Source: a virus. From it: a stretch of 24,719 bases of DNA. The translations under genes and the position numbers were made by a program. Positions 1 to 24,719 of the stretch are shown here, in pieces. The notes under the pieces are model-generated. The model searched no databases and had not been told where the DNA came from. It was given only the letters and a program-made list of their open reading frames with translations. Location of the stretch: positions 1-24,719 of the IMG/VR virus record IMGVR_UViG_3300046006_003846. One strand, written 5' to 3'. Position 1 is the first letter of the stretch, and every line of letters begins with the position of its first letter.

Positions 1-1
1 A

Positions 2-2914: not shown

Positions 2915-2939
2915 TATGTATAATAAATAATAAAATACC

Positions 2940-9593: not shown

Positions 9594-10547
9594 ATGGCTA
9601 AAAGTAAAATTCCATCTACAATAAAACAAATCCAAAACTACAAACCGCAGGAAATAAACTACGCATTTCAAAAAACTATTTCCTATTCTCAAATGTCAAT
9701 GTATTTGCAATGCCCTAAAAAATGGGCATTACAATACAGAGATGGACATAAAGTACCTAGTTTTTCTATCAACATGACTTTTGGAACCGCAATACACGAA
9801 ACATTACAAAATTATTTATCTGTAATGTATAGTGAATCAGGAGCAGCTGCTGATAAAATTAATCTATGGGAATATTTTGAAGACTGTTTTAGTGCTACAT
9901 ATTTAAATGGATACAAATCAAACAATAATATCCATTTTACCAACCCAAATGAAATGAGAGAATTTTTTGATGATGGAGTAGCTATATTGGATTTCATTAA
10001 AAAAAGACGAGGCGAATATTTTAGTATTAAAGGATGGCATTTAGTAGGAATCGAGATCCCCATCGTTATAGCGCCAAATAAAACACATAACAACGTTTTA
10101 TTCAACGGCTTCATTGACTTAGTAATGTATCATGAAGGAACAAATAAATTCGTTATCTACGATATAAAAACAAGTACTCGTGGGTGGGGAGATAAAGAAA
10201 AGAAAGACGAAATTAAACAATTCCAAATACTACTTTATAAATCATTTTTTAGTGAACAATTTGGAGTTCCTGAAGAAAACATCGATGTTGAATTCTTTAT
10301 TGTAAAGCGTAAAATATGGGAAGAAAGTGAATTTCCTCAAAAACGTGTACAGATATTTGCTCCTGCAAATGGTAAAACAAAAGTAAAAAAATCAAAAGCA
10401 GCATTAGATACATTTATTGATGAAGCATTTAATTTAGATGGTTCATACAAATTCACAGACCACCAACCACAACCTAGTAAATCTAATTGCATGTATTGTC
10501 CATATAAAGATAAAAAAGAGTTATGCAACAAATCAACTCTTATATAA
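9594..10547 (+). CDS. PD-(D/E)XK nuclease, RecB/Cas4-like, with probable Fe-S cluster
   Basis: A 317-residue nuclease of the RecB/AddB/Cas4 type. Motifs in order: 'SYSQMSMYLQCPKKW' (C40), 'FGTAIHE' (H68), 'GFIDLVM' (D175), 'YDIKTS' (D190, K192) and 'QFQILLY' (Q209, Y215). The C-terminus holds CxxCx8C (C299, C302, C311), which with C40 gives the four cysteines expected of a 4Fe-4S cluster, as in AddB and Cas4. It probably resects or processes DNA ends during replication or recombination. No helicase domain is fused and no cas1/cas2 is nearby, so a CRISPR role is unlikely. It starts one base after the previous stop. Confidence 0.9.
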   Translation: MAKSKIPSTIKQIQNYKPQEINYAFQKTISYSQMSMYLQCPKKWALQYRDGHKVPSFSINMTFGTAIHETLQNYLSVMYSESGAAADKINLWEYFEDCFSATYLNGYKSNNNIHFTNPNEMREFFDDGVAILDFIKKRRGEYFSIKGWHLVGIEIPIVIAPNKTHNNVLFNGFIDLVMYHEGTNKFVIYDIKTSTRGWGDKEKKDEIKQFQILLYKSFFSEQFGVPEENIDVEFFIVKRKIWEESEFPQKRVQIFAPANGKTKVKKSKAALDTFIDEAFNLDGSYKFTDHQPQPSKSNCMYCPYKDKKELCNKSTLI

Positions 10548-10578
10548 TACGCATATATGTATATATAAACAATATGTT

Positions 10579-10761
10579 ATGGAAGAAAACAAAGAACAAT
10601 TAACCTCAGTAAAAGTCGACAAAACACTATTCGATACTTTTAAAATAGAGTGTGTAAAAAGAAAATTCTCGTTAAATAAACTTGTAAATCGAGCAATGGA
10701 TTTATATCTTAACGATGAAAATTTTAGAAAACAAGTAACCAATTTAAAAACCAAAGACTAA
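10579..10761 (+). CDS. Ribbon-helix-helix (Arc/CopG-like) protein
   Basis: A 60-residue protein. The N-terminal strand 'LTSVKVDKTLFDTFKIEC' followed by 'SLNKLVNRAMDLYLND' has the strand-helix-helix outline of Arc/CopG/MetJ-type DNA binders. The frame is open further upstream to 10438 inside the nuclease gene. I chose the ATG at 10579 because it gives a clean RHH domain, follows an A/T-rich gap and avoids a 110-base overlap. Such proteins bind DNA as dimers and often repress their own operon. It sits exactly at the boundary between the replication block and the glycan island, making it a candidate local regulator; it could also be a toxin-antitoxin orphan or an accessory binder. The TA-repeat gap just upstream (10548-10578) could be its operator. 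Confidence 0.75.
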   Translation: MEENKEQLTSVKVDKTLFDTFKIECVKRKFSLNKLVNRAMDLYLNDENFRKQVTNLKTKD

Positions 10762-10769
10762 AACCCGTT

Positions 10770-12221
10770 ATGAAAGACAGTTTTGATTATTTACCTCAGA
10801 GCAAGAGGAAAAAAATACTTCTTATATGCGACGATATTCGAGCATTTAGTGGAGTAGCAACAGTAGCTAAAGAAATAGTATTAGGCACAGCACATCATTT
10901 CAATTGGATTAATATAGCAGGAGCTATACAACACCCAGATAAAGGAAAAAGATTTGATGTATCTGCTGAAACAAATAAAGTAGCAGGAATAGATGATTCA
11001 TCAGTAATGATTTATCCAACTGATGGATATGGTGATACAACTTTTATTCGTCAATTAATTGCTATGGAAAAACCAGATGCTATATTTTTAATTACAGATC
11101 CTAGGTATTTTACTTGGTTATTTAATATTGAAAATGAAATTAGGAAAAAAATGCCTATTATTTATTTAAATATTTGGGATAGTCCATTTCCTTATCCATT
11201 ATGGAATAAAGTATTTTATGAATCGTGTGATGTTTTATTGTCAATCTCTAAACAAACCAAAAACATAAATGAAGTTGTTTTAGGTGATAAAGCAAAAAAC
11301 AAAATCATTAAATATATTCCTCATGGTTTAAATGAAGAAACATATTTCCCTATTACTCCTGAATACGCTAAGTATAAAGAATATAAAGAGTTTAAAAAAC
11401 AAGTATTAGGTGATAAAGAATATAGTTTTGTTTTATTTTTTAATTCAAGAAATATTCGCCGTAAACAAATACCAGACACACTATTAGCATTTAGAATGTT
11501 TTTAGATGGTTTACCTAAAGAAGAAGCAGATAAATGTGCTATATTACTTCACACTGAAATAGTAAGTGAACATGGAACTGATTTAAATGCTGTAAAAGAA
11601 TATTTGTTTGAAAATTATCCAAACAACGTTATATTCCACCAACAAGGAGTAGGAGCAGAACAAATGAATTGGTTATACAATATGTCTGATGCTCAAATAT
11701 TGATTACAGATAATGAGGGTTGGGGATTAAGTTTAACTGAAGCAATGTTAGCTGGTAAACCAATTATAGCTAATTGTCAAGGTGGAATGCAAGACCAAAT
11801 GCGTTTTGAAGATGAAAAAGGTAATTGGATTGATTTTAATGTAGATTTTCCTTCAAACCATAGAGGTACATTTAAAAAACATGGTGATTGGGCATTCCCA
11901 GTTTACCCAGCAAGTATATCGATTCAAGGATCTCCTCAAACACCTTATATATCAGCAGATAGAGTTGCTCCGGAAGATGTAGTTGCTCAAATAGAAAAAG
12001 TGTATTATTTATCTCCAGACATGAGAAAACAACTTGGTTTAGAAGGTAGAGAATGGGCTATAAGTGATGAAGCAGGATTTACAAGCAAACATCAAGCTAG
12101 AAGAGTAATAAATGCTTTAGATGATTTATTTTCAACTTGGAAACCAAGAGAAAAATATGAACTTATAAATGCTACAACTCATAAATTAGATGTATCTCGT
12201 AACCATAAATTAACTTATTAA
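10770..12221 (+). CDS. Glycosyltransferase, GT4-like (GT-B fold)
   Basis: A 483-residue retaining-type glycosyltransferase. The N-terminal Rossmann part is 'KKILLICDDIRAFSGVATVA' with the Gly-rich loop that faces the acceptor. A mid-protein 'NSRNIRRKQ' (about 227-235) corresponds to the linker strand with basic residues that contact the nucleotide-sugar phosphate. The C-terminal donor motif is 'EGWGLSLTEAMLAGKPII', an E-x7-E pair (E316, E324). The protein is longer than most GT4 enzymes (around 370-400) because of an insertion before the last helices. No signal peptide or membrane helix is seen, so it should be cytoplasmic. It begins the glycan island. Donor and acceptor cannot be told from sequence. 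Confidence 0.88.
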   Translation: MKDSFDYLPQSKRKKILLICDDIRAFSGVATVAKEIVLGTAHHFNWINIAGAIQHPDKGKRFDVSAETNKVAGIDDSSVMIYPTDGYGDTTFIRQLIAMEKPDAIFLITDPRYFTWLFNIENEIRKKMPIIYLNIWDSPFPYPLWNKVFYESCDVLLSISKQTKNINEVVLGDKAKNKIIKYIPHGLNEETYFPITPEYAKYKEYKEFKKQVLGDKEYSFVLFFNSRNIRRKQIPDTLLAFRMFLDGLPKEEADKCAILLHTEIVSEHGTDLNAVKEYLFENYPNNVIFHQQGVGAEQMNWLYNMSDAQILITDNEGWGLSLTEAMLAGKPIIANCQGGMQDQMRFEDEKGNWIDFNVDFPSNHRGTFKKHGDWAFPVYPASISIQGSPQTPYISADRVAPEDVVAQIEKVYYLSPDMRKQLGLEGREWAISDEAGFTSKHQARRVINALDDLFSTWKPREKYELINATTHKLDVSRNHKLTY

Positions 12222-12231
12222 AATAAAATCT

Positions 12232-13536
12232 ATGAATAAACCACTTTTTATAATTAGCTGCCCCATAGATACCTACTCAGGGTATGGAGCTCGCTCTCGT
12301 GACTTAGTTAAATCCATCATTGAATTAAAAAAAGATGAATGGAATATACAAATAATGCCTCAACGTTGGGGTGATTGTAGTTGGGGATTTATTAATGATA
12401 ACCCTGAATGGGGATTTTTATCACAATATTTTTTACCTCAACCACAATTAACTCAACAACCAGATATTTGGGCTCAAATAACTGTACCTAATGAATTTCA
12501 ACCAATAGGAAAATACAATATTGGTATTACAGCAGGTATTGAAACAACAATTTGTCCTCCTGAATGGCTTGAAGGAGTAAATAGAATGAATATTACTTGG
12601 GTATCATCAAAACACTCTAAAAAAGTATTTGAAGATACTAAGTTTGAAAAGAAAGATCAACAAGGTAGAGTAATAGGATTAGTTCAATTGGAAAAACCAA
12701 TGGAGGTTATTTTTGAAGGAGCTGATTTAGATAAATATAAAATACTTGATCCTAAAGAATTAACTAGTATTGATTTAAGTCCAATTAAAGAATCATTTGC
12801 TTATTTATTTGTAGGACATTGGATTAACTTAAATTCACCACTTGGTGAAGATAGAAAAAATGTTGGACTATTAATTAAAGCATTCTTTGAAACATTCAAA
12901 AACAAATTAAATAAACCAGCATTAATATTAAAAACATCTGGAGCTGTTAGTTCATACATGGATAGAGATGCTATATTAAGAAATATAGACGTTATTAAAA
13001 AAACAATAAATAGTAAAGATTTACCAAATGTTTATTTATTACATGGTGAATTTACAGATACTGAAATAAATGAGCTATATAATAACCCAAAAGTAAAAGC
13101 AATGGTTTCATTAACTAAAGGTGAAGGTTTTGGTCGTCCATTACTTGAGTTTAGTTTAGTTAAAAAACCAATTATTACTACAAATTGGAGTGGTCACACA
13201 GATTTCTTACATTACAAAAATAATGTTTTATTAAATGGTGAATTAAAACCAGTACACCCAGCAGTAGCAAATCAATTCCTACTTAAAGAAAGTTCTTGGT
13301 TTAATGTTAATCCACCTGAGGTAGGTGAAGCATTAATGAATGTATTTAAAAACTATGATGATTATTTACCAGGTGCTCGTAAGCAAGGTGAATACAATAA
13401 GGAAAAACATTGTTTTAATGCTATGAAAGAAGTTGTAAATGAACAATTAAGTAAAGTACCTGATTTTCCTAAACAAGTACAATTAAAATTACCTCAACTT
13501 AAAAAAATTGAATTACCAAAATTAACTAAAATATAA
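12232..13536 (+). CDS. Glycosyltransferase, GT4-like (GT-B fold)
   Basis: A 434-residue glycosyltransferase. The N-terminus 'ISCPIDTYSGYGARSRDLV' carries the Gly-rich acceptor-side loop, and 'GIETTICPPEWLEGVNRM' plus 'WVSSKHSKKVFE' are typical of this phage/bacterial GT4 branch. The donor-site motif is 'EGFGRPLLEFSLVKKPII' with E298 and E306. A Lys/Pro/Leu-rich tail (last ~25 residues, 'QVQLKLPQLKKIELPKL') is probably an unstructured or repeat-like extension. It follows the first GT4 gene by 10 bases, so the two may act in sequence on one glycan. Donor sugar unknown. Confidence 0.87.
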   Translation: MNKPLFIISCPIDTYSGYGARSRDLVKSIIELKKDEWNIQIMPQRWGDCSWGFINDNPEWGFLSQYFLPQPQLTQQPDIWAQITVPNEFQPIGKYNIGITAGIETTICPPEWLEGVNRMNITWVSSKHSKKVFEDTKFEKKDQQGRVIGLVQLEKPMEVIFEGADLDKYKILDPKELTSIDLSPIKESFAYLFVGHWINLNSPLGEDRKNVGLLIKAFFETFKNKLNKPALILKTSGAVSSYMDRDAILRNIDVIKKTINSKDLPNVYLLHGEFTDTEINELYNNPKVKAMVSLTKGEGFGRPLLEFSLVKKPIITTNWSGHTDFLHYKNNVLLNGELKPVHPAVANQFLLKESSWFNVNPPEVGEALMNVFKNYDDYLPGARKQGEYNKEKHCFNAMKEVVNEQLSKVPDFPKQVQLKLPQLKKIELPKLTKI

Positions 13537-13537
13537 A

Positions 13538-13996
13538 ATGAACGATAACTTAATAACATGCAAGCACTGTGGATCAGATGCTTGCTATGTAACCGAAAAC
13601 TCAGACATCATCAAAACTTATAGCTGCTTCGGATGTGGATATACCAGCAATTCTTTAATGAAAGAAGGTGAAGAATTCTATGCTCAACAATTAGAAGTCC
13701 TACCTGAAATCTATAAAGACGTAATGTTTAAAGACGAGGATGGTTTAATGTGGATGCCTACTACAATCAATTTACCTCAACAAGGTATGGTGTTTTACAA
13801 TGGCACAAATAAAGAAAATGCTAAATGGGCCGCTGTAAAAGCAGTTGAAGTACTAGAAGCAGAAAAAGAAAAATACCCAATTAAAGGCAAACCAGGAGAA
13901 TTCTATGAATGGAGAATGGATATGTCTACTATAAAGCCTTTTGAAATGAAAGAATTTATGGAAGCTTTATCTTACATTGGGGTTTTACCAGAATAA
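13538..13996 (+). CDS. Zinc-ribbon protein of unknown function
   Basis: A 152-residue protein whose first 35 residues form a zinc ribbon: CKHC (C8, C11) and CFGC (C30, C33), with an extra C16. The remainder has a 'GLMWMPTTINLPQQGMVFYNG' segment and a C-terminal helix; I do not recognise it. Similar small zinc-ribbon proteins sit beside glycosyltransferase genes in phages, so a scaffold or regulatory role in the island is possible. It starts one base after the previous stop and ends 16 bases before the next gene, with a predicted promoter across its end. Confidence 0.75.
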   Translation: MNDNLITCKHCGSDACYVTENSDIIKTYSCFGCGYTSNSLMKEGEEFYAQQLEVLPEIYKDVMFKDEDGLMWMPTTINLPQQGMVFYNGTNKENAKWAAVKAVEVLEAEKEKYPIKGKPGEFYEWRMDMSTIKPFEMKEFMEALSYIGVLPE

Positions 13997-14008
13997 TTCT
14001 TATATTTA
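13977..14008 (+). promoter_or_regulatory. Bacteroidota-type promoter, predicted leaderless start
   Basis: TTG at 13977-13979, a 21-base spacer, then TATATTTA at 14001-14008. Only four bases (GGTT) separate the box from the ATG at 14013, so transcription should begin at or next to the start codon. The 15-base stretch TATATTTAGGTTATG is identical at 16385-16399. Confidence 0.5.
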
Positions 14009-14012
14009 GGTT

Positions 14013-14642
14013 ATGAAAATTAGTTATGCAATTACAGTATGTAATGAACTTAAGGAAATACAACGTTTACTTGATTTTTTATTATCTGAAAAAAAAGAAC
14101 ATGATGAAATCATTGTGTTAATGGATACAACTAAAGCTACTGATGAATTAGTATCAACACTACGTCATTATGAGATGCATAATATGGATCATATGACAGT
14201 ATGGGCAGATAAGTTTGAAGGACACTTTGCTGATTGGAAAAACAAATTAGCTTCTTATTGTTCAGGTAATTATATTTTCCAAATTGATGCTGATGAATTA
14301 CCTCACACTGACTTAGTAAAAATTTTACCATTAATGTTAGAACAAAATTCAGAAGTAGATTTATTTTTTGTTCCTAGAATAAACACAGTAGAAGGACTTA
14401 CTCAAGAACATATTATTAAATGGAGATGGAATGTGGATGAAAAAGGTTGGGTTAATTTTCCTGACTATCAAACACGAATCTATAAAAAATCTCCTGAAAT
14501 AAAATGGGAAGGTAAAGTACATGAAAGAATAACTGGTACTAAAACATTTTCCCCATTACCAGCTGAAGAGGTTTGGTGCTTGTATCATCCTAAAAATATA
14601 GAAAAACAAGAAAAACAAAATAATTACTATGAAACAATATAA
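14013..14642 (+). CDS. Glycosyltransferase, GT2-like (GT-A fold), short
   Basis: A 209-residue GT-A glycosyltransferase. 'ISYAITVCNELKEIQRLL' is the nucleotide-binding start of GT2, and 'FQIDADELP' gives the metal-binding DxD (D92, D94). The later 'DYQTRIYKKSPEIKWEGKVH' segment is typical of this short bacterial/phage branch. There is no membrane helix, unlike processive GT2 enzymes. Its end overlaps the next gene by 14 bases. The start at 14013 directly follows a promoter-like box. Donor and acceptor unknown. Confidence 0.87.
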   Translation: MKISYAITVCNELKEIQRLLDFLLSEKKEHDEIIVLMDTTKATDELVSTLRHYEMHNMDHMTVWADKFEGHFADWKNKLASYCSGNYIFQIDADELPHTDLVKILPLMLEQNSEVDLFFVPRINTVEGLTQEHIIKWRWNVDEKGWVNFPDYQTRIYKKSPEIKWEGKVHERITGTKTFSPLPAEEVWCLYHPKNIEKQEKQNNYYETI

Positions 14643-15519
14643 AAAAATCTTTATAGCTGGAGCTAACGGGATGCTAGGTACTACTTTACAAAGTATTGTT
14701 GATACTAAAGATTTCCTACTCACAGATAAAGAAACATCAGAAAATATTAGTTGGTGTGATATTAGAGACCTACAATACACAACTAATCTAATTAAAGAAT
14801 ACCAACCAGACATAATTCTAAATTTTGCAGCATTAGTAGATTTAGAATATTGTGAAAAAAACCAAGACGATTGTTATTCAACAAATACAGTTGCTGCTAT
14901 TCATTTATTCAATCTAGCTAAAGATTTAAACATTCCATATGTGTTTATAAGTACAGCAGGTATATTTGGTAATGATAAAGAATTTTATACAGAAGAAGAT
15001 CAACCATATCCACTAAGTGCTTATGGTAAAAGTAAATATTTTACTGAACAACTTTTACTAAACCAAAACTACTCTAAATACTGGATATTCAGAGCAGGAT
15101 GGATGATGGGTGGTGGTCCTGAAAAAGATAAAAAATTTGTTAATAAAATTATGAAACAAGTTAAATCAGGAGCTAAAGAATTATTTGTTGTAGATGATAA
15201 ATTAGGAGTACCTACTTATACTAAAGATTTTGCTAGTTCAATTTTGAAACACATAGAAGAAGAATTACCTTATGGATTGTATAATATGGTGAGTCAAGGT
15301 GAAGCTAGCAGATATGAAACAGCAATTGCTATTAATGAATATCTTAATTTAGGATTAACAATACATAAAGTAGATAGTACTCACTTCAACACAGAATATT
15401 TTGCCCCACGCCCATACTCAGAAAAATTAATAAATAAAGCATTAAATGATTTAGGAAGAAATTATATGAGAAACTGGAAAGTATGTTTACATGAATATTT
15501 AGATAAATACTTTAAATAA
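14629..15519 (+). CDS. RmlD-like NAD(P)-dependent sugar reductase/epimerase (extended SDR)
   Basis: A 296-residue extended short-chain dehydrogenase. The cofactor motif is 'FIAGANGMLG' (GxxGxxG, residues 11-17). 'NFAALVDLEYCE' matches RmlD-type active-site surroundings, 'FISTAGIFG' holds the catalytic S/T (S108, T109), and 'SAYGKSK' gives Y132-xxx-K136. RmlD reduces dTDP-4-dehydrorhamnose to dTDP-rhamnose; this protein could do that or a related nucleotide-sugar reduction. No RmlA, RmlB or RmlC gene is present in the window, so a host-derived precursor may be used. It overlaps the upstream GT2 gene (14 bases) and the next gene (one base). Confidence 0.85.
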   Translation: MKQYKKIFIAGANGMLGTTLQSIVDTKDFLLTDKETSENISWCDIRDLQYTTNLIKEYQPDIILNFAALVDLEYCEKNQDDCYSTNTVAAIHLFNLAKDLNIPYVFISTAGIFGNDKEFYTEEDQPYPLSAYGKSKYFTEQLLLNQNYSKYWIFRAGWMMGGGPEKDKKFVNKIMKQVKSGAKELFVVDDKLGVPTYTKDFASSILKHIEEELPYGLYNMVSQGEASRYETAIAINEYLNLGLTIHKVDSTHFNTEYFAPRPYSEKLINKALNDLGRNYMRNWKVCLHEYLDKYFK

Positions 15520-16379
15520 TGAATAAAATCCCTGTAGCTCGCCTTTGGCACAAAAAAGGTAAATTGGAATATTATACTATGTTTCAATTACATAAATTTT
15601 TTCCTGGAATTGAGTTTGAATTTCATATTATATTAGACCAACCAGATTATAAAGATGAATGGTCTAAAAAAATAGATGAACTACCTTATAAATGTTTTTG
15701 GTACTCTAAAGAAGATATGAGTAGCTATTTAAAAAATAGTGAATATGGAAACGAAGAATTAATTTCTAAAATTCCTAATTTTATTCATTTTTATCATATT
15801 TTAATTAACCATTATTTAAGAAGAGTATTTTCTTATGATTATGTTTTAAATATAGAATACGATGTTTTATTTAATAGTGATGATTTAACTCAATTAAAAG
15901 AATTCTTAACAACCAAAACACCTTTTAGTATAGTTGAACCTGCAAATTCAGGATGCGATAAAGCATTAGCTAAATCATTGTCTGATTTATTTCAACAAAA
16001 TATAGTCAAATACCAGAATATAGGAATAAATGCTGGGTTTCAAGGGATTGATTTAAAAATATTTGATGAATTCTTAAACCCAACAACATTCAATATGTTG
16101 ATAAATTGTTTTGATTTTTCAGGAATATACAATGAAGATGGGACTGAAAAAACAGGGTGGACAAGAACAATTCTAGACACTCAAGAACAATCATTTCATT
16201 CATTAATGAATGCTATTAGTCCTAATCATCAATTATTAAACCCAAGTGAATACTATGTTTTCCCATACTGGGTAGATATGGAACACCTTAAAAAATCTAA
16301 AGTTATTCATTTTATAGGTCATGAAAAACCAAAAGAAATGTTTGATATGATTGATAAAAATTTGGAAATCTTAAATTAA
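15519..16379 (+). CDS. Putative glycosyltransferase, GT8-like (GT-A fold)
   Basis: A 286-residue protein. 'YVLNIEYDVLFNSDD' places E113 and D115 where GT-A enzymes have their DxD metal site. 'NIGINAGFQGIDLKIFDEF' recalls the 'NaGvmliNl' motif of GT8, and 'VIHFIGHEKP' recalls its 'iHf.g..KPW' ending. These three landmarks appear in the right order but identity is modest, so the family call is tentative. It overlaps the preceding stop by one base (TAATG). It is probably cytoplasmic. An alternative is a GT-A protein of an unassigned phage family. Confidence 0.6.
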   Translation: MNKIPVARLWHKKGKLEYYTMFQLHKFFPGIEFEFHIILDQPDYKDEWSKKIDELPYKCFWYSKEDMSSYLKNSEYGNEELISKIPNFIHFYHILINHYLRRVFSYDYVLNIEYDVLFNSDDLTQLKEFLTTKTPFSIVEPANSGCDKALAKSLSDLFQQNIVKYQNIGINAGFQGIDLKIFDEFLNPTTFNMLINCFDFSGIYNEDGTEKTGWTRTILDTQEQSFHSLMNAISPNHQLLNPSEYYVFPYWVDMEHLKKSKVIHFIGHEKPKEMFDMIDKNLEILN

Positions 16380-16392
16380 ATTTATATATTTA
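16361..16392 (+). promoter_or_regulatory. Bacteroidota-type promoter, predicted leaderless start
   Basis: TTTG at 16361-16364, a 20-base spacer, then TATATTTA at 16385-16392. The box ends four bases before the ATG at 16397, as at 14001, so a leaderless or nearly leaderless mRNA is predicted. The -33 element lies within the end of the upstream coding sequence. Confidence 0.55.
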
Positions 16393-16396
16393 GGTT

Positions 16397-16921
16397 ATGA
16401 AAAAATTACATTTAGGTTGTGGAACAAAACATCTTGACGGTTACACTAATATTGATATTAGATACCTTCCAGGTGTAGATGAAGTAAATAACATTCGTTT
16501 TTTACGAAACTATAAAGAAAACTCAGTAGATGAAATTTATGCTTGCCATGTTTTAGAACATTTTGGTAGGTGGGAATATAAAGAAGTACTTAAACGTTGG
16601 TTTGAAATTCTAAAACCAGGAGGACAATTACGTTTAGCAATACCTAATTTTAGTTCTATTTGTTCGTATTATACCAAAACAGGTGATTTAAAATCACTAA
16701 TTGGTCTTCTTTATGGTGGTCAAGATTATGATGAAAATTATCATTACATTACTTTTGATTATCATACTTTATCTAACGATTTAAGAAACATAGGTTATAC
16801 TTCTATCTTAGAATGGAACACAGAAGACTATCCAGGAGATGATTATAGTAAATCATATTTACCTCACATGGATAAAGAAAATGGAATACTAATGAGTTTA
16901 AATATATTAGCAGTAAAGTAA
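16397..16921 (+). CDS. SAM-dependent methyltransferase, class I
   Basis: A 174-residue class I methyltransferase. Motif I is 'LHLGCGTKHLDGYTNIDI' (G7-C-G9, acidic D20 at the end of strand 2). 'DEIYACHVLEHF' (about 45-56) is the post-II region, and 'ILKPGGQLRLAIPNF' is the strand 5 motif. This 'hLGCG..h..gy.NiD' type is common in polysaccharide gene clusters, where members may methylate sugars or fatty acyl groups. It begins a run of tightly linked genes and overlaps the next start by one base. Substrate unknown. Confidence 0.87.
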   Translation: MKKLHLGCGTKHLDGYTNIDIRYLPGVDEVNNIRFLRNYKENSVDEIYACHVLEHFGRWEYKEVLKRWFEILKPGGQLRLAIPNFSSICSYYTKTGDLKSLIGLLYGGQDYDENYHYITFDYHTLSNDLRNIGYTSILEWNTEDYPGDDYSKSYLPHMDKENGILMSLNILAVK

Positions 16922-17733
16922 TGAAACTATTTATAGATTTTAACGATGAAAAACGGTTTATACCTAAATTAAAAGATATAGAACACATAGATTTTTCATT
17001 ATTTTTAGATTGTTCTCCTAAAAACAAAGAAGAATTATCTTCAATTAATATATTAGTTCTTGTAGAACCAAATGAATATTTTGGTTTACATGATTGGGCT
17101 ATCCAAAATAAAAATTTATTTTCTTTTATATTAACATATAATGATAAAGTATTAAATAATTGTGAAAATGCAGTATATTTACCTTTTGGATTTACATTTT
17201 TAAAAGAAGAACACTACCAAAAAGAACATAATAAAGAATTTAAATTATCTCATTTATGTGGAATTTTAAATAAATCCTACGGACATTCAATGCGTCATGA
17301 AATTCTAGCTAGAGAAAATGAATTTAAAATCTCTACTAACTTTTATAAAACAATAGGAGATAGACATAATCTAGAAACTGTAGGTAATGATAAAGAAACA
17401 GTATTTGGAAATTCTCAATATGGAGTAGTAATTGAAAATTTTTCTCATAGAGGATATTTTTCAGAAAAATTAATAGATTGTTTTTTACTTAAAACTATTC
17501 CTATATATTGGGGTTGTTCAAACATATACAATTATTTTTATGAACCTGGATTTTTTAAATTTGAGAATGTAGATGATCTAATTTATATTTCAAATATATT
17601 AACCCCAGAAATGTATGAATTAAGAAAAGATGCTATAGAACATAATTATCAATTAGCTCTTAATTACACAAATAATGAACAACGTGTAGTTGATAAAATA
17701 AAAGAAATATTTAATCTAAATAATTTAATATGA
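16921..17733 (+). CDS. GT10-like (alpha-1,3-fucosyltransferase-type) glycosyltransferase
   Basis: A 270-residue protein whose C-terminal half has the GT10 donor-binding signature: 'VVIENFSHRGYFSEKLIDCF' followed by 'KTIPIYWGCSNI' (E172, N173, S181-E-K183, P194, W197-G198). This corresponds to 'ENs...Y.TEKl' and 'vPiyWG' of fucosyltransferases. The N-terminal acceptor-side half is divergent and short. GT10 enzymes transfer L-fucose (or related 6-deoxysugars) from GDP-fucose. The donor here is uncertain because no GDP-fucose synthesis gene is in the window. Exostosin-type GT47 shares the 'EK..d' theme and is the main alternative. Overlaps neighbours by one and four bases. Confidence 0.72.
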   Translation: MKLFIDFNDEKRFIPKLKDIEHIDFSLFLDCSPKNKEELSSINILVLVEPNEYFGLHDWAIQNKNLFSFILTYNDKVLNNCENAVYLPFGFTFLKEEHYQKEHNKEFKLSHLCGILNKSYGHSMRHEILARENEFKISTNFYKTIGDRHNLETVGNDKETVFGNSQYGVVIENFSHRGYFSEKLIDCFLLKTIPIYWGCSNIYNYFYEPGFFKFENVDDLIYISNILTPEMYELRKDAIEHNYQLALNYTNNEQRVVDKIKEIFNLNNLI

Positions 17734-18380
17734 AAAATGTATACGATATAACTAATGAGTTTGAAAGACGTTTAGCTGAATACACAGGAGCTCCTTATGT
17801 AGTAACTGTAGATAATCAAAGTAATGCTTTGTTTTTAGCTTTATATTATGAACATTATGTAAATAAAAGTATAAAAACAGATTCAATCACTATCCCAAAC
17901 AGAACTTACCCTTCAGTACCATGTGAAATTATTCATGCTGGTTTGAAAGTTAAATTTAGACAAGTTGAAGGAAGAACAATTAAAGGCTCTTATCAATTAG
18001 AAGGATCTAATGTTTGGGACTCTGCTTTATCATTTACAACAGATATGTACAAACCAAACCAACATATGTGTATTAGTTTTACAGGCCCATACAAACATTT
18101 TAAATTAAGTAAAGGTGGAGCTATATTAACAGATAATTATGATGCTAATTTATGGTTTAAAAGAGCAAGATATTCAGGAAGAAGAGAATGTTCTTATCAT
18201 GATGATAATTTAGATATGCTAGGATGGAATTTTTATATGATGCCTGAATTAGCAGCACGTGGGTTATTATTAATAGGACAGTTTTATAATGGAGAAGGAA
18301 AACCAAAACATAATGCTGATTTAGAATTACCATACCCAGATTTGTCACAATTTCCAATTTATACAAAAAACCATGAATAA
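17730..18380 (+). CDS. Shortened DegT/DnrJ/EryC1/StrS-type PLP enzyme
   Basis: A 216-residue protein covering only the large PLP domain of the family; normal members are about 360-400 residues. 'VDNQSNALFLALYY' matches the phosphate-binding 'sGTaAL..AL' region, 'TIPNRTYPSVPCEIIHAGLK' the following conserved block, and 'VWDSAL' supplies the pyridine-nitrogen Asp (D97). 'SFTGPYKHFKLSKGGAILTD' contains the likely Schiff-base Lys K122. The C-terminal small domain is missing, and the sequence ends soon after 'MMPELAARG'. Full-length relatives transaminate 3-keto or 4-keto nucleotide sugars; this form may need a partner or have another reaction. No frameshift is seen: the next gene starts 8 bases before its stop with a different fold. 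Confidence 0.78.
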   Translation: MKNVYDITNEFERRLAEYTGAPYVVTVDNQSNALFLALYYEHYVNKSIKTDSITIPNRTYPSVPCEIIHAGLKVKFRQVEGRTIKGSYQLEGSNVWDSALSFTTDMYKPNQHMCISFTGPYKHFKLSKGGAILTDNYDANLWFKRARYSGRRECSYHDDNLDMLGWNFYMMPELAARGLLLIGQFYNGEGKPKHNADLELPYPDLSQFPIYTKNHE

Positions 18381-19293
18381 AGAATTTGATATTAATTTTG
18401 TAATATTTTCTCCATTTCCTGACTATGTTAGTTATATTGGAGGAGCCATTGTTCCTCATATTTTAGCTAATCAATTATCATTATTAGGAGAAAATGTTTA
18501 TTTATATGCTAATTCAACAAATCCAAAATATAACGTAACTTGTATACCTTGGAAAACAGATATAGAGTTTGATCCTAAAAACACAATAGTAATAATTATT
18601 GCTGGAGATGGAGAACACACATTTGAACATAATATTCCTGAGTGTTTAAAAAATGCTCCTAATATAGTTAGGTGGTTAGTAAATAATCAATCAAGAATGT
18701 ATCCTGAAGATAATAAACTTTATACTTACCACAAGTATTGGAGAGTATTAGATAATCAAAAAATAGATGGAGAGCTTTCTGTTATTGAATCAAATCATCA
18801 TTTATTTTATGATCGTGGATTAAAAAGAAAAGGAACTTGCTATTTAATGAAAGGAAATTTAAATATAAATGAAGAACCTGAAAGAGTAATTCATAAACCT
18901 GAAGATTTATGCATAGATTCAATACTATATAATATCCCGGATTCTGAAAAAATGAAATTCTATTCAGAATTATTTAATCAAATGGAATATTTTATTAGTT
19001 ATACCCCATTTACTCATACCTCAGTACTAGCAGCAATGTGTGGATGTAAATCTATAGTTATTCCTAAATCTGAATATGAAGGAATAAAATTTAGTAAGGA
19101 AAAATGGTTAAATGAAATATGGTGCTCTAAATATGGTATAGCAGTTGGATTAGATGATTTACCTAGAGCTATATCTACTATGGGTCAAGTTATACCTAAT
19201 ATAAAACACTATGAAGAAGTTACTCAACCCACTCAAGCAAAAAAGTTTATTGAAGATTGTTATGTTTGGTTAAAAGAAAAATATAATTTATAA
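18373..19293 (+). CDS. Putative GT-B-type glycosyltransferase
   Basis: A 306-residue protein. The N-terminal strand 'FDINFVIFSPFPDYVSYIGG' with 'GGAIVPHILANQLSLLGENV' is like the acceptor-side Rossmann fold of GT-B enzymes. 'MEYFISYTPFTHTSVLAAMC' with 'GCKSIVIP' is like the donor-side motif in which S/T and the backbone hold the nucleotide sugar. No exact GT4 E-x7-E pair is present, so I cannot assign a CAZy family. It overlaps the upstream gene by 8 bases and is followed one base later by the ATP-grasp gene. Probably cytoplasmic; donor and acceptor unknown. Confidence 0.65.
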   Translation: MNKEFDINFVIFSPFPDYVSYIGGAIVPHILANQLSLLGENVYLYANSTNPKYNVTCIPWKTDIEFDPKNTIVIIIAGDGEHTFEHNIPECLKNAPNIVRWLVNNQSRMYPEDNKLYTYHKYWRVLDNQKIDGELSVIESNHHLFYDRGLKRKGTCYLMKGNLNINEEPERVIHKPEDLCIDSILYNIPDSEKMKFYSELFNQMEYFISYTPFTHTSVLAAMCGCKSIVIPKSEYEGIKFSKEKWLNEIWCSKYGIAVGLDDLPRAISTMGQVIPNIKHYEEVTQPTQAKKFIEDCYVWLKEKYNL

Positions 19294-19294
19294 A

Positions 19295-20524
19295 ATGAAA
19301 AAACTATTAATCCTAGGGGCTAACCCAGAAACTATACGTCTTATTAATACAGCTAAATCTATGGGAATTTATACTATAGTTACTGACCATGACCCTAATG
19401 CTCCCGCAAAAAAAGTTGCAGATAAAGGAATCAATATAAATGGAATGGATGTAGATGGTTTAGTAAAATTTTGTTTAGAGGAAAAAGTAGATGGAGTATT
19501 AGTTGGTATAGCAGATAGATTGATTCAACCATATCAACAGGTTTGTGAAAAACTTAATCTTCCTTGTTATGGAAATCAAATGTCCTGTGATTATCTTACT
19601 AATAAAGGAAAATTTAATGAAATACTACCTAAATATAATTTATCAGGTATTCCTTCAACTAGATTATATAAAGCCCATTATCCGCTTTTTCCTTGGACAA
19701 AATTAACATTCCCTATTTTTATAAAACCTATAGACAAAAACTCAGGACAAGGAATGAGTGTGGCTTATAACCATGATGAATTAAATGTAGGAATATCTAA
19801 AGCTTTTAATTCAACAAACAGTGAATATATCTTACTAGAAGAATACATGGACTGTAATGATACAATGTTGAATTTTACCATTATTGAAGGAAAAGTATCT
19901 TTATCAGCAATGACAGACAGATATACTTGTAAATTACAAAAAGACGCAAGTAAAGTATGTTTAGGAGCTAAATATCAATCTAAATTTGCTCAATTATTTA
20001 TGGATACTGACTATAAAAATATGTGTGATTTATTAAAAGAATTAGAAGTAAAAAACGCTATATTTACTATATCTGCATTTGTAAAAGATAATAAATTTTA
20101 TTACTACGACCCAGGATTTAGATTACAAGGTGAAGCCCCCGATCTCCATATACACAATGTAACTGGTTTTGATCAAAAGAAATTTTTAATTAACTATGCA
20201 TTAGGTATTAAAGATACACAAACCAATAATCCATTTAATAAATTTAATGCTACAATTTGGATATTAGTTAAATCTGGAACTATAAATAAGATTGATATAT
20301 TCAAAGAAGATCCATCTATATTTTATGTATCTCAAAGATTCAATGTTGGTGATATAATTACAGATGAAATGTTAGGAACTGAACGTCAAGTAGCAGCTAG
20401 AATATACCTAACATGTAACACAGAAGAAGAACTTAAAAATAAAATTGAAGAAATTCAATTTAAAACAACAATATTAGATACTAATAACAATAATCAAATA
20501 TTAGATAAATTTATTTATGAATAA
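19295..20524 (+). CDS. ATP-grasp enzyme, carbamoyl-phosphate-synthase-like
   Basis: A 409-residue ATP-grasp protein. The pre-ATP-grasp Rossmann domain is 'KLLILGANPETIRLINTAKS' (with 'TIVTDHDPNAPA'). The ATP-binding part has 'FPIFIKPIDKNSGQGMSVA' (about 139-157), the adenine-site 'YILLEEYMD' (about 180-188) and a late 'YYYDPGFRLQGEAP' region, where such enzymes bind metal and phosphate. ATP-grasp enzymes ligate a carboxylate to an amine, thiol or other nucleophile through an acylphosphate. In surface-glycan clusters they can attach amino acids or acyl groups to sugars, but the substrates here are unknown. Neighbours are a GT-B gene (one-base gap) and an SDR gene (8-base overlap). Confidence 0.85.
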   Translation: MKKLLILGANPETIRLINTAKSMGIYTIVTDHDPNAPAKKVADKGININGMDVDGLVKFCLEEKVDGVLVGIADRLIQPYQQVCEKLNLPCYGNQMSCDYLTNKGKFNEILPKYNLSGIPSTRLYKAHYPLFPWTKLTFPIFIKPIDKNSGQGMSVAYNHDELNVGISKAFNSTNSEYILLEEYMDCNDTMLNFTIIEGKVSLSAMTDRYTCKLQKDASKVCLGAKYQSKFAQLFMDTDYKNMCDLLKELEVKNAIFTISAFVKDNKFYYYDPGFRLQGEAPDLHIHNVTGFDQKKFLINYALGIKDTQTNNPFNKFNATIWILVKSGTINKIDIFKEDPSIFYVSQRFNVGDIITDEMLGTERQVAARIYLTCNTEEELKNKIEEIQFKTTILDTNNNNQILDKFIYE

Positions 20525-21251
20525 AAAAACATTTGTTATAGCAGGAGGATCTACAGGAGTAGCAAAACAAGTAGTTTCTGAACTTATTAAGTTAGGACAC
20601 AATGTAGTATTTGGGGATTTAGATGTTAAAAACGAATTAAAAGAAAAACAACTAATATCTATTTATACCGATGTATCTAATGTAAATGATTGTGAAAAAT
20701 TATTTAAAATAGCATATGAAACTTTTGGTAAAATAGATGGTTTTTTTAGTTATGCAGGAATTACTCCTGCTCAATCATTATTAGAATGTACTGAAGAACT
20801 ACATGATGAAATATTTAATGTAAATTTAAAAGGAGCTTTGTTTTGTTCTAAATATGCTGTAAAGTATATGAAAGAAAATAAAACTGGAGGTTCAATTATA
20901 TTTACAGGATCTCCTCATTCTGATGCAGGTGAAATTGATAGAGTTTCATATGCGTGTTCAAAAGGAGCTGTTGTTACATTAGCAAACCACATAGCTAAAA
21001 ACTATAGTAAATACAATATACGTTCTAACTATATTACAATGGGTTGGACACCAACAGAAGGAGAATTAGCTTTAAGAGAAAGTCAAGGAATGTCTAAAGA
21101 TGATTTAGAAAAACATGCATCAACATTTATTCCTATGGGTAGAATGAACAAATACGAAGATATAGTCCCCACAATAATATATTTACTTTCTGATAATGCA
21201 CTAATGGTATCAGGATCAAACATCAGAATTACTGGTGGTTGGTTTATGTAA
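20517..21251 (+). CDS. Short-chain dehydrogenase/reductase (classical SDR)
   Basis: A 244-residue classical SDR. The cofactor loop is 'VIAGGSTGVAKQV' (GxxxGxA, slightly altered from TGxxxGIG), with 'DVSNVNDCEKL' and 'FFSYAGITPA' (NAG replaced by YAG). The catalytic residues are intact: N103, S132, Y145 and K149 (S..YACSK). The C-terminal 'IRITGGWFM' is the usual SDR ending. It probably oxidises or reduces a sugar or polyol intermediate of the glycan pathway using NAD(P)H. D35 or D37 after strand 2 suggests NAD(H) preference. It overlaps the ATP-grasp gene by 8 bases. Confidence 0.92.
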   Translation: MNKKTFVIAGGSTGVAKQVVSELIKLGHNVVFGDLDVKNELKEKQLISIYTDVSNVNDCEKLFKIAYETFGKIDGFFSYAGITPAQSLLECTEELHDEIFNVNLKGALFCSKYAVKYMKENKTGGSIIFTGSPHSDAGEIDRVSYACSKGAVVTLANHIAKNYSKYNIRSNYITMGWTPTEGELALRESQGMSKDDLEKHASTFIPMGRMNKYEDIVPTIIYLLSDNALMVSGSNIRITGGWFM

Positions 21252-21268
21252 TAAAAAATAAAATAGTT

Positions 21269-22468
21269 ATGAGAAGTAATCCTTTAGTTAGTATAATTAT
21301 CCCAATATATAACAGTGAAGCATTTTTAGATAAATGTATTCAAAGTGCTATAAATCAATCTTATAAAAATATAGAAGTTATCCTTGTTGATGATGGTTCA
21401 ATAGATTCAAGTGGAGAAATATGTGATAACTATTCTTCTATTGATAATAGAGTTAAAACAATCCATAAAACCAATGGAGGATTAGTTAGTTCTCGTAAAA
21501 CAGGACTTCTAGCTTCAACAGGTGAATATGTGTTGTATATTGATGGAGATGATTGGGTTGAACTTGATATTATAAAACATTATGTAGATCAAGTTCTAAA
21601 ATTTAATGCTGATGTTGTTATATCATCCCATATAGTAAATTTAGAAGGTAGAGAAGATATTTTAATGAACTCATTACCTTCTGGTGTTTATGATAAAGAA
21701 GTACTTAAATCAACAATTTATCCTAAAATGTTATACACTGGAAAATTTGCTCAATTTGGGATATTTTCATATTCATGGGGGAAATTATATAGAAAAGAAA
21801 CATTATTAAAAAATCAATTAAATGTTGATGAAAATATAACTATAGGGGAAGATGCTTTATGTCTATATCCAACTTTATTAGACACTAACATATTAGTTAT
21901 TTCAGAACAACCTGGTTATCATTATAGACAACGAGCAGATTCTCAAATGAAAACTTTAAGAAAAATAGAAATATCTAAAATGCAAAAGGTTTATGATGAC
22001 CTTAAAAATATATTTTCTGATAAGGGAGTTTTAAATATAATGTTACCTCAACTCCAATATTATCTTTTAAGCTTATTAATAATTAATACTGAAGGTCCAA
22101 ATGTAGATAATATAACAAAATTATATCCTTTTAATGAAATTAAGCCTAAAAAAAGATTAGTAATGTATGGGGGAGGTACTTTTGGTCAACACATGTATAA
22201 AAAAATAATTAATAGTAAATCATATGATATTCTAGCATGGTTAGATGAAAAACACAAACACTATGCAAAACTAAATCTCCCTGTAACAGGGTTTGATAAA
22301 ATTAAATCCCTTGATTATGATGCTGTTTTAATAACATTAATTGATGAAGATAATTCTAACCAAGCAGTGTTAAAATTAATAAAACATGGAGTTGATAAAG
22401 ATAAAATAATTCAAATTCCACGTTACAATATTTTAGTATCACTTTTACAATTTAAAATTAATTTATAG
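21269..22468 (+). CDS. Glycosyltransferase GT2 with C-terminal Rossmann-like domain
   Basis: A 399-residue protein. An upstream TTG (21239) in frame lies inside the previous gene; I chose ATG 21269, which follows an A-rich leader (AAAATAAAATAGTT) like those of other genes here. Residues 1-230 are a GT2 domain: 'VSIIIPIYNSEAFLDKCI', 'VDDGSIDSSGEICD' (D41, D42) and 'YIDGDDWVE' (D92, D94, D95). From about residue 290 a second domain starts with 'KRLVMYGGGTFGQHMYKKI' (GxGxxG-like), then 'LAWLDEKHKHYA' and 'YDAVLITL'. This is a nucleotide-binding-like module also found attached to sugar-modifying enzymes. The fused module may bind a nucleotide sugar or modify the product. Donor unknown. Confidence 0.88.
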   Translation: MRSNPLVSIIIPIYNSEAFLDKCIQSAINQSYKNIEVILVDDGSIDSSGEICDNYSSIDNRVKTIHKTNGGLVSSRKTGLLASTGEYVLYIDGDDWVELDIIKHYVDQVLKFNADVVISSHIVNLEGREDILMNSLPSGVYDKEVLKSTIYPKMLYTGKFAQFGIFSYSWGKLYRKETLLKNQLNVDENITIGEDALCLYPTLLDTNILVISEQPGYHYRQRADSQMKTLRKIEISKMQKVYDDLKNIFSDKGVLNIMLPQLQYYLLSLLIINTEGPNVDNITKLYPFNEIKPKKRLVMYGGGTFGQHMYKKIINSKSYDILAWLDEKHKHYAKLNLPVTGFDKIKSLDYDAVLITLIDEDNSNQAVLKLIKHGVDKDKIIQIPRYNILVSLLQFKINL

Positions 22469-22469
22469 T

Positions 22470-23288
22470 ATGGAACTAATTTTTCACGCAGGATCAAGCT
22501 TACTAGAAGGACCTATATGGGACGCAGTTAACAAATTAGTATATTGTGTATCAATAGAACAAGGTCTTATTTATCAAATTAACCCCAAATCAGGAGAAGT
22601 ACAATCCTACCCAACTCAAGGAAGTGTAGGGTGTGTTGCTTTAACTTTAGATGGAAATCTTATTTCAGCAGAAAAAGAAGGAATTTTTAACATAAATCCT
22701 AAAACAAAAGAAAAAATATACTTAACTCAATTCGAATCAGATGTAAATTTACGTTACAATGATGGTAGATTTGATCCAGTTGGGAGATTTCTTGTAGGAA
22801 CAAAGAGTGAAAAAGATTTTTTTCTTGAAAAAGAAATTGTGAAAGGTAAATTGTTTTCGTATTATAATGGAGTACATAAAGTATTATTAAATAATTTATT
22901 AATCTCAAATGGAATAGGATTTTCTCACAATGGAGAAAAAATGTATTTCATAGATACACCTACAAAGAAAGTAGCTCAATACGAATATAATTTAGCCACT
23001 GGTGATATTTTATTTGAAAAATTCATTGTAGAAATTGATGGACCCGGATTACCTGATGGAATGTGTGTTGATTTAGATGGAAATATATGGGTAGCTGAAT
23101 GGGAAGGAAGTAGAGTTAGGAAATGGGATGTTAATACTGGAAGAGTACTAGACGAAATAACTTTGCCTTGTCCAAGAGTAACTTCATGTTGTTTAGGAGG
23201 AGAAAACATGGATGAACTTTTTATTACAACTGCTAAAAGTGAAGGTAATGTTTTTGGAGGAGCTTTATTTAAAGAAAAATTAAAATAA
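22470..23288 (+). CDS. SMP-30/gluconolactonase-like protein
   Basis: A 272-residue six-bladed beta-propeller of the SMP-30/gluconolactonase/LRE family. The metal site is preserved: E13 in 'LLEGPIWD', N147 in 'ISNGIGFS' and D196 in 'LPDGMCVD'; 'LRYNDGRFDPVG' (R95, N97, D98) is the substrate-side motif. Family enzymes open sugar lactones with a divalent metal. In this island it could process an aldonolactone made by a sugar dehydrogenase such as the upstream SDR, which is inference. No signal peptide is seen, so it should be cytoplasmic. It starts one base after the GT2 stop. Confidence 0.9.
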   Translation: MELIFHAGSSLLEGPIWDAVNKLVYCVSIEQGLIYQINPKSGEVQSYPTQGSVGCVALTLDGNLISAEKEGIFNINPKTKEKIYLTQFESDVNLRYNDGRFDPVGRFLVGTKSEKDFFLEKEIVKGKLFSYYNGVHKVLLNNLLISNGIGFSHNGEKMYFIDTPTKKVAQYEYNLATGDILFEKFIVEIDGPGLPDGMCVDLDGNIWVAEWEGSRVRKWDVNTGRVLDEITLPCPRVTSCCLGGENMDELFITTAKSEGNVFGGALFKEKLK

Positions 23289-23293
23289 AATAT

Positions 23294-23875
23294 ATGATTG
23301 AACCATCAAAATTTGATAATGAAACCTTTTTAGCTACGAGAGAGCATCTTAATTCATTTATTAACAGAGTAGCTAAAACACACGGATATGAAGGTGCTAA
23401 ATTACTTGAAATTGGACCTCAAGAACGTTCTGAAGTAAAAACTGCTTTTAATATGTGTGATATTAAAACACTAGATATAGTTCCGAATTATAATCCTGAT
23501 ATTATAGGAGATATTACTAAACATAATTCTCACATAGATGAATCTACATATGATATAGTTACTTGTTTAGAAATATTAGAACATACCTTAAATCCATTTG
23601 CTGCTGTAGAAGAATTAAGACGAATAACCAAACACGAAGGATATATTTTATTCTCAGCCCCACTAAATTGGAGAATTCATGGTCCTATTCCTGATTGCTG
23701 GAGATTTACAGAATTTGGATGGAAAGTATTATTAAAAGATTTTGATATTATTGAAATAGATAAACTAGAAACCCCAGACAGAAATTTATTTCCTATTAAA
23801 TACAATATACTTGCAAAATGTAATAAATTAAAAAATGTAGATATTCATTCTATGAAATTTGAACCTATAAAATAA
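23294..23875 (+). CDS. SAM-dependent methyltransferase, class I
   Basis: A 193-residue methyltransferase. Motif I is 'AKLLEIGPQERSEVK' (E39-I-G-P), strand 2 ends at D61 in 'IKTLDIVPNYNPDI', then 'GDIT' (D73), 'YDIVTCLEILEHTLNP' (E93, H97) and 'ITKHEGYILFSAPL'. The later 'WRIHGPIPDCWRFTEFGWK' is a segment often seen in methyltransferases next to sugar genes. Distinct from the one at 16397: the motif I is GP rather than GCG. The substrate is unknown; a sugar O- or N-methylation is plausible. It starts at ATG after a short A-rich gap. Confidence 0.85.
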   Translation: MIEPSKFDNETFLATREHLNSFINRVAKTHGYEGAKLLEIGPQERSEVKTAFNMCDIKTLDIVPNYNPDIIGDITKHNSHIDESTYDIVTCLEILEHTLNPFAAVEELRRITKHEGYILFSAPLNWRIHGPIPDCWRFTEFGWKVLLKDFDIIEIDKLETPDRNLFPIKYNILAKCNKLKNVDIHSMKFEPIK

Positions 23876-23882
23876 TTAACAC

Positions 23883-24620
23883 ATGAAAATAATTTATAGA
23901 ATATCAGACACCGGCTACAATAAAGTAAAGCCAGACTATATCAACAACGAAAATTGTTTAAATAATTTTTGTAAAGTATTTATTGAAGAAATTCATAACA
24001 TTCATATTATAGCAGATAATGTTTCTAAAGAAACAACTGAAATGATTTGCAAGTATGTTAATCAATCTCAAATCACTCATGTTAAAATAGGTCATGGAGC
24101 AGGAACATTCAATCTAGCTTTAGATATGGCTTTAAAATGGGATGAAGATGAAATAGTTTACTTTGTAGAAAATGACTATATTCATTTACAAAATTCTCCT
24201 CAAATACTAGAAGAAGGATTTAAATTAGGAGCACCTTACATGACTTTATATCTTCATCCTGATAAATTTATACCTCCATTTGCTGGCGGAAATCCAGAAG
24301 TAGATCAAGATGGAGGATATTTTTCTAAAATGTATAGAGGTGAAACTCAATTGTTTGGGATGTTTAATAGTACAACTATGACTTTTGCTGCTAAAGTAAA
24401 AACATTAAAAGAAGATGAAGCAATATTAAGAAAATACACAAGTGGAACTCACCCAGACGATTTTAAAATGTTTCTTGAATTAAGAGATAAAAAAGGTAGT
24501 GCTTTATTATGCCCTTTAAACACATTCAGCACTCATGGAGAAACAGCTTGGTTAGCACCTTTATACAAAATAAAACAAGAAAACTTAATTAACGAATGGA
24601 GAAAACATACATTTCAGTAA
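23883..24620 (+). CDS. Putative GT-A-type glycosyltransferase
   Basis: A 245-residue protein. 'KIIYRISDTGYNKVKPDYIN' opens with a GT-A-like strand, 'THVKIGHGAGTFNLALDMAL' resembles the nucleotide-contacting helix, and 'VYFVENDYIHL' supplies an ExD (E96, D98) at the metal site. A conserved 'SGTHPDDFKMFLEL' follows, then 'STHGETAWLAP', where the His may complete the metal site. I infer a glycosyltransferase of a phage/bacterial branch close to GT2; the donor is unknown. The last 25 bases overlap the next glycosyltransferase gene. Confidence 0.72.
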   Translation: MKIIYRISDTGYNKVKPDYINNENCLNNFCKVFIEEIHNIHIIADNVSKETTEMICKYVNQSQITHVKIGHGAGTFNLALDMALKWDEDEIVYFVENDYIHLQNSPQILEEGFKLGAPYMTLYLHPDKFIPPFAGGNPEVDQDGGYFSKMYRGETQLFGMFNSTTMTFAAKVKTLKEDEAILRKYTSGTHPDDFKMFLELRDKKGSALLCPLNTFSTHGETAWLAPLYKIKQENLINEWRKHTFQ

Positions 24621-24719
24621 TCATCCCTACTTTTCGCAGTCCAGACGCTCTAGACTTATGTCTTACATCAGCTATTCAAGGACAACAAGATAGAAAAAAT
24701 CAAATTATCTTTCTTTTCT
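24596..24719 (+). CDS. GT2-like glycosyltransferase, 5' part (runs off window)
   Basis: An ATG at 24596 opens a frame to the right edge (41 codons). It begins MEKTYISVIIPTFRSPDALD and continues 'CLTSAIQGQQ', the classic GT2 'vSViIPtyn....L..cl.Sl..Q' start. It overlaps the upstream gene's end by 25 bases. The rest of the protein, including any DxD, is outside the window. Confidence 0.85.
   Translation, partial: MEKTYISVIIPTFRSPDALDLCLTSAIQGQQDRKNQIIFLF

Follow-up and report, generated by a model that had tools for sequence, protein, structure and literature searches.

The window examined here is the whole of the IMG/VR virus record IMGVR_UViG_3300046006_003846 (24,719 bases), itself a fragment, and the system in question is an island of sugar-related genes that runs from position 10770 to the window edge. 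A T4-like replication block fills the left part of the window (family B DNA polymerase, GroES, GroEL, gp44, gp62, a nuclease and a ribbon-helix-helix protein) and is followed by 17 island genes, each of them on the + strand and -25 to +17 bases from the next. A preliminary description, made from the sequence alone, had noted such an island and its overlapping starts; both are real, and 13 of the 17 genes have family support of the kinds named there. The border genes and the island genes, including glycosyltransferases (GTs), methyltransferases (MTs) and a short-chain dehydrogenase (SDR), are as follows.

9594 to 10547, + strand: PD-(D/E)XK nuclease, left border (Pfam PDDEXK_1, 3e-21)
10438 to 10761, + strand: ribbon-helix-helix (Arc-like) protein (PHROG Arc-like repressor, 3e-5; present in 71 of 98 GT4a loci); probable true start near 10579 (MEENKEQ...)
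10770 to 12221, + strand: GT4a, core, left arm (Pfam, 6e-10; GT-B fold; E-x7-E motif intact, E316...E324)
12232 to 13536, + strand: GT4b, core (Pfam, 5e-7)
13538 to 13996, + strand: u152, core zinc-ribbon protein of 152 aa (invariant C8, C11, C30 and C33)
14013 to 14642, + strand: GT2a, core, last gene of the left arm (Pfam, 3e-10)
14629 to 15519, + strand: cargo, RmlD-like nucleotide-sugar reductase (Pfam, 8e-51)
15519 to 16379, + strand: cargo, 286-aa protein, GT-A-like by motif only, without family support
16397 to 16921, + strand: cargo, methyltransferase MTa (Pfam, 1e-5)
16921 to 17733, + strand: cargo, GT10-like (fucosyltransferase-like) protein (Pfam, 0.0016, below the cut-off; solved alpha-1,3-fucosyltransferases, 6e-6 and 7e-6, the latter H. 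pylori alpha-1,3-FucT)
17730 to 18380, + strand: cargo, short DegT-type aminotransferase of 216 aa (Pfam, 5e-11; candidate pyridoxal phosphate (PLP) lysine K122)
18373 to 19293, + strand: cargo, 306-aa protein, GT-B-like by eye only, without family support (56% identity to a gene in relative L024)
19295 to 20524, + strand: cargo, ATP-grasp ligase (Pfam, 6e-6)
20517 to 21251, + strand: cargo, SDR (Pfam, 7e-39)
21239 to 22468, + strand: cargo, GT2b with a PglD_N-like C-terminal part (Pfam, 1e-32 and 0.003)
22470 to 23288, + strand: cargo, SMP-30/gluconolactonase-like protein (Pfam, 1e-62)
23294 to 23875, + strand: cargo, methyltransferase MTb (Pfam, 1e-7)
23883 to 24620, + strand: u245, found in the right arm of many relatives, GT-A-like only by its ExDY motif (invariant in 13 aligned relatives)
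24596 to 24719, + strand: GT2c, cut by the window edge, the final gene of the island ahead of its right border (66-88% identity to full-length GT2 relatives)

Six GTs in the window are supported, the partial GT2c among them, and nine are possible. Pfam bears out the earlier assignments of two GT4 and two GT2 enzymes, the RmlD-like, SDR, DegT-like, ATP-grasp and lactonase-like proteins and both methyltransferases. The GT10-like assignment also holds through its matches to solved enzymes, despite the low Pfam score, and GT2c is the start of a GT2, as its full-length relative in contig L003 (79% identity) scores 3.7e-14 as a GT2. The count of “at least eight” GTs must be lowered, since the remaining three proteins (a “GT8-like” protein at 15519-16379 and two others at 18373-19293 and 23883-24620) carry suggestive motifs and found no support in Pfam, NCBIfam or profile-profile searches. 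No evidence links u152 to sugars.

To compare this locus with its relatives, we searched IMG/VR and recovered relatives of the nuclease in 212 stretches, of GT4a in at least 598 and of u152 in at least 538. Gene content was counted in 98 loci of at least 9 kb that contain GT4a; these are the best-scoring loci, so remoter relatives may differ. Among them the nuclease occurs in 97, GT4b in 96, u152 in 92 and GT2a in 91. When loci were picked by u152 alone, GT4b lay upstream in 81 of 81, and GT2a lay directly downstream in 77 of the 78 with sequence left. The left arm, nuclease-GT4a-GT4b-u152-GT2a, is present with all five genes in order in both the window and Flavobacterium phage immuto. Many islands end on the right with u245 and GT2c, followed by small genes, among them one for a DksA-like protein and one for an HNH endonuclease. 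These two genes stand at the same place in immuto; for the window, the border is past the edge by about one gene, judging by relatives, and the island is therefore nearly complete. By gene order, then, the island is a fixed left arm and a fixed right border around exchangeable cargo. The single coordinated pathway that the preliminary description had read from the overlapping starts overlooks the main feature of the island, its composite structure, in which the cargo between the fixed arms is replaced between close relatives.

Cargo content varies widely. The 506 cargo open reading frames (ORFs) of 91 islands form 268 clusters at 60% identity, the 23 complete islands span 4.6-12.3 kb from u152 to the border (19 of them distinct), and 40% of distinct island pairs are without any common cargo gene (50% identity). 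GDP-mannose dehydratase/epimerase types, methyltransferases including FkbM, GT2 and DegT head a Pfam census of 144 cargo representatives. The commonest cargo family is GT10-like, with relatives in 32 of the 98 loci.

Replacement of the cargo can be followed among very close relatives. The window, L008 and L064 share an identical stretch of about 10.3 kb that reaches from the polymerase into the nuclease gene, to about position 10300; past this point, the core of the window has a nucleotide identity of about 50-83% to that of L008 and L064, and their cargo is not the same. For L007 the reverse holds, with 17-25% difference from the window upstream and 99% identity to it from about 9244 on. L009 combines an L007-like backbone with the island of L008, and all four backbone/island combinations are present. 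The window's combination is repeated in another sample by L006, and that of L008 by L064. On these alignments, a recombination junction between two island types is placed inside the nuclease gene near 10300; in general, the junctions of cargo replacement fall within the arms. Independent pairs point to cargo exchange as the window and L008 do: L047/L048, L019/L024, L056/L057 and L112/L127/L139 share no cargo despite a near-identical nuclease, and in several independent pairs with unshared cargo both the nuclease and GT4a are 99-100% identical. As a control, the nonsynonymous distance (pN) between L095 and the window was compared gene by gene with that between the window and G001, the nearest large contig (155 kb), as a yardstick. 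In four core genes measured for both contigs, the distance to the window is 1.5-2.2 times larger for L095 than for G001, and in the nuclease it is more than twice as large. The two distances are about equal in ATP-grasp, SDR and GT2b, and L095 is the closer in MTa; RmlD and GT10 depart from this cargo pattern.

The core differs from the cargo in its constancy. GT4a keeps the GT4 motif E-x7-E in every relative aligned, and its predicted fold is an ordinary GT-B whose best fold matches are GlgM, PimB', HepE and MshA. Its best solved relative by sequence is B736L, a GT from the chloroviruses, which glycosylate their own capsid. A GT4a profile run against about 85,000 GTDB genomes matched only 5 contigs, all with the same phage neighbors. 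GT4a is thus essentially phage-only and the conserved core is a phage family, not a set of enzymes taken from hosts, which is what an acceptor belonging to the phage would lead one to expect. Another core member, u152, consists of a zinc ribbon and a further domain that is predicted with confidence (predicted local distance difference test score, pLDDT, 92.6). Fold searches with u152 returned no PDB match and, in BFVD, its own family only, and gave no functional lead.

We tentatively favor a cassette-type glycan-assembly locus, whose product would be a soluble glycan put together within the cytoplasm on an acceptor that the phage itself encodes, most likely one of its virion proteins. In this scheme the inner glycan, conserved like the phage-encoded acceptor that carries it, would be assembled in the host cytoplasm by GT4a, GT4b and GT2a; the RmlD, DegT, ATP-grasp and SDR enzymes of the cargo would make unusual donor sugars; and GT10, GT2b and the methyltransferases of the cargo would add and methylate outer sugars. 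Recombination between the conserved arms would swap the cargo and, with a virion protein as the most likely acceptor, would change the glycan “serotype” of the particle. The shared acceptor is probably set by the arms, and the outer sugars vary with the cargo; inner machinery that is conserved and specific to phages, combined with an outer part that varies, is best accounted for if the phage owns a conserved acceptor. A virion protein is the likeliest such acceptor because DNA is disfavored by the lack of a hydroxymethyl pathway, a separate DpdA route, and normal sequencing and assembly, as detailed below. The evidence is also consistent with the intracellular assembly of a complex modified oligosaccharide suggested in the preliminary description. 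The generalization that virulent T4-like phages of Bacteroidota own an exchangeable serotype locus, in which conserved GTs place an inner glycan on a virion protein and the outer sugars are set by a cassette that recombines, is possible but less likely than not.

Several points weigh against this interpretation. Both the acceptor and the glycan are putative, and the cargo is equally suited to O-antigen chemistry. In fold comparisons GT4a is a standard GT4, with PimB', GlgM and MshA as its nearest matches. B736L matches phage DNA GTs too, so that the chlorovirus link is a lead and not proof. Finally, a near-identical box of about 450 bp is common to all four backbone/island combinations, and some of these could be assembly chimeras.

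The closest rival, which we consider somewhat unlikely, is remodeling of the host surface. Lipid-linked O-chain or capsule precursors would be extended or replaced in the cytoplasm and exported by the flippase, polymerase and ligase of the host, so that superinfection is blocked or progeny are freed from debris. Similar clusters have been read as host-surface genes in pelagimyophages (PMC7029224), cyanophages (PMC3037559) and Immutovirus (PMC11500664), and the GDP-mannose dehydratase, RmlD, DegT and FkbM genes of the cargo are typical of O-antigen loci. In one relative (L182), moreover, a large tail-fiber-like gene with YadA-head repeats lies about 10 kb downstream of the island. The membrane proteins of such a system were sought with a hydropathy scan, to which the positive controls (T4 Imm, immuto holin and immuto PotE-like) respond. 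The scan found no polytopic membrane protein in the 91 islands, although the use of host export proteins is still compatible with this result. Only 4 of the 506 cargo ORFs have a membrane-like segment (one gene family, one segment each), versus 12 of 183 other ORFs of G001. No protein of the window has such a segment, which upholds the earlier remark that no flippase, polymerase or membrane-anchored initiating transferase is visible, and the window's island contains no membrane protein that could serve as the polytopic flippase GtrA or the membrane glucosyltransferase of a gtrABC-type system. A strictly conserved, phage-specific GT core would also be unexpected for a strain-variable host glycan, though it does not exclude host export.

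Hypermodification of DNA, in which the GTs place an oligosaccharide on modified genome bases as a protection against restriction, is improbable. The island does adjoin replication genes, where the DNA-modification genes of T4-like phages reside (PMC6024577), and phage YerA41 carries a substitution of about 1 kDa, apparently an oligosaccharide, on thymidine (PMC9023294). However, a dCMP hydroxymethylase (gp42-like) was not found in the relatives of the window, itself a fragment; their PF00303 genes, considered as candidates, are ordinary thymidylate synthases, in keeping with the earlier view that the island goes beyond simple T4-type DNA glucosylation. The C5-DNA methylase was absent from the relatives tested except Microcystis phage Mel-JY01, and Tet/JBP was not found in a search that had no working control. 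DpdA was detected in 12 of 18 records, including immuto, with the immuto protein as query, as the Pfam TGT model misses DpdA even in immuto, where it is annotated. While DpdA could supply another handle for glycosylation, it already provides a way of modifying DNA that is separate and involves no sugar. Standard methods have also sufficed to sequence and assemble many genomes from this group, in contrast to that of YerA41. That the sugar genes are kept merely as spare DNA for headful packaging, an idea raised in PMC3037559 and in line with the free variation in island length and content, is very improbable given purifying selection in 13 of 13 genes compared between the window and G001 (ratios of nonsynonymous to synonymous differences, pN/pS, of 0.08-0.49), intact and tightly packed frames, and a fixed core with an intact E-x7-E motif.

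The phage represented by the window is T4-like, immuto-related and virulent, and its relatives form a family of aquatic viruses. Its family B DNA polymerase (329-2914) matches phrog_262 at 7e-148, its clamp loader gp44 was identified at 1e-74 by profile search, and its GroEL is 81% identical to that of G001. G001 is homologous genome-wide to immuto (capsid, terminase, portal, tail sheath, ribonucleotide reductase, thymidylate synthase and DpdA), which was isolated on Flavobacterium sp. LMO8. Shine-Dalgarno use is typically lost in Bacteroidota. Matches of at least 4 to this motif occur upstream of 8-12% of starts in the window, G001 and other relatives, below the control region, compared with 7% in immuto, 64% in T4 and 49% in Mel-JY01. 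The host is likely a member of Bacteroidota, because the window and its relatives lack a Shine-Dalgarno signal as immuto does. Scans for the Bacteroidota-promoter and T4-late-promoter consensus gave no clear enrichment. The five GTDB contigs with GT4a belong to metagenome-assembled genomes with mixed labels, one a Woesearchaeon, and their binning was rejected as a guide to the host.

Among known phages, immuto (vB_FspM_immuto_2-6A, NC_055915, about 48008-59988; Immutovirus) resembles the window in its nuclease, GT4a (55%), GT4b, u152 (47%), GT2a and sugar cargo; it differs in its mostly different cargo and in the family A polymerase before GroES-GroEL. Mel-JY01 (PP395634, 83441-89690) also has a GT cluster after gp44, gp62 and a PD-(D/E)XK nuclease, with GT4a-, GT4b- and GT2a-like genes in order, but it has a cyanobacterial host, uses Shine-Dalgarno sites, lacks a u152 match and has a GT4a of only 38%; GroEL was not found within the region compared. 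Just upstream of its nuclease and GT cluster, Mel-JY01 (L004, 80521-81189) encodes its C5-DNA methylase and a SAM synthetase, in contrast to the other relatives tested. Large GT clusters are known in T4-like phages, where the host recognition clusters of pelagimyophages and the lipopolysaccharide clusters of cyanophages are hypervariable islands of GT and deoxysugar genes (PMC3037559, PMC7029224). Those islands lie between VrlC and gp14 together with tail fibers, or close to hli/phoH and tRNAs, whereas the window's island, not between VrlC and gp14, follows gp43-gp44-gp62 and the nuclease and has conserved GT arms. Divergence was described as gradual in those islands; replacement is abrupt among relatives of the window. 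For Immutovirus, a review (PMC11500664) reports sets of genes that serve modified nucleotides and the glycosylation of components of the bacterial surface. Chloroviruses (PBCV-1, NY-2A) likewise encode soluble GTs, sugar-nucleotide enzymes and methyltransferases; their host is eukaryotic and they have no single cassette locus, while virion glycosylation by the window's locus is putative. Bacterial O-antigen and capsule loci hold serotype-specific cargo between conserved flanks and exchange it by recombination. The layout of the window's island is the same, but the island is viral and without flippase, polymerase or ligase. As far as the sources searched go, the new elements are the fixed-arm layout in hundreds of contigs, exchange between near-identical phages, an orphan zinc-ribbon core member and the near-absence of membrane proteins.

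Phage GT clusters tend to be classed as auxiliary genes whose use is unclear. The layout of fixed arms and swappable cargo in hundreds of viral contigs makes the question of their target testable, as the acceptor is expected to depend on the conserved core and the outer sugars on the cargo, and a cultured relative, immuto on Flavobacterium sp. LMO8, is at hand. If the glycan-assembly reading is true, exchange of this locus diversifies phage particles in the way that exchange of O-antigen or capsule loci diversifies bacteria.

Individual cargo genes deserve comment. The DegT at 17730-18380 is a “mini” form without the C-terminal domain; such forms of 195-226 aa occur in many phages, including a Synechococcus phage, with an invariant candidate PLP lysine. 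Its 77% identity to immuto might suggest recent transfer, which we rejected: its synonymous divergence (pS 0.66) is as saturated as that of the core (0.65-0.72), and its likeness is therefore explained by constraint. The same caution applies to 127 cargo pairs with identity above core identity. Relatives of the ATP-grasp ligase were found neither in isolate phages nor, by the search made, in GTDB genomes.

Other variable features were observed near the island and in the wider lineage. To the right of the island in L168 (2765-4601), small proteins start with MKxxELKxIIxEE-type stretches, which resemble the leader peptides of processed T4-like head proteins. A slot about 10 kb downstream of the island, which may be a variable adhesin or tail-spike slot, holds a 1041-aa protein in L182 (4339-7461, - strand; the YadA-head repeats are joined by a Peptidase_G2 autocleavage domain), a 374-aa protein in L168 (8394-9515) and a 565-aa protein in L185 (4230-5924, - strand). 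The polymerase in the slot ahead of GroES-GroEL is of family B in the window and of family A in immuto (37898-40231), so that the replicative polymerase may have been exchanged during the history of a single lineage. In G001 (L035, about 1-4000), an ORF of 225 aa seems to interrupt the DNA polymerase gene and may be an inserted homing endonuclease. The thymidylate synthases of the lineage (L175-L181; immuto 26884-28155) carry insertions of very variable length, for a total of 326-481 aa versus about 264 in E. coli.

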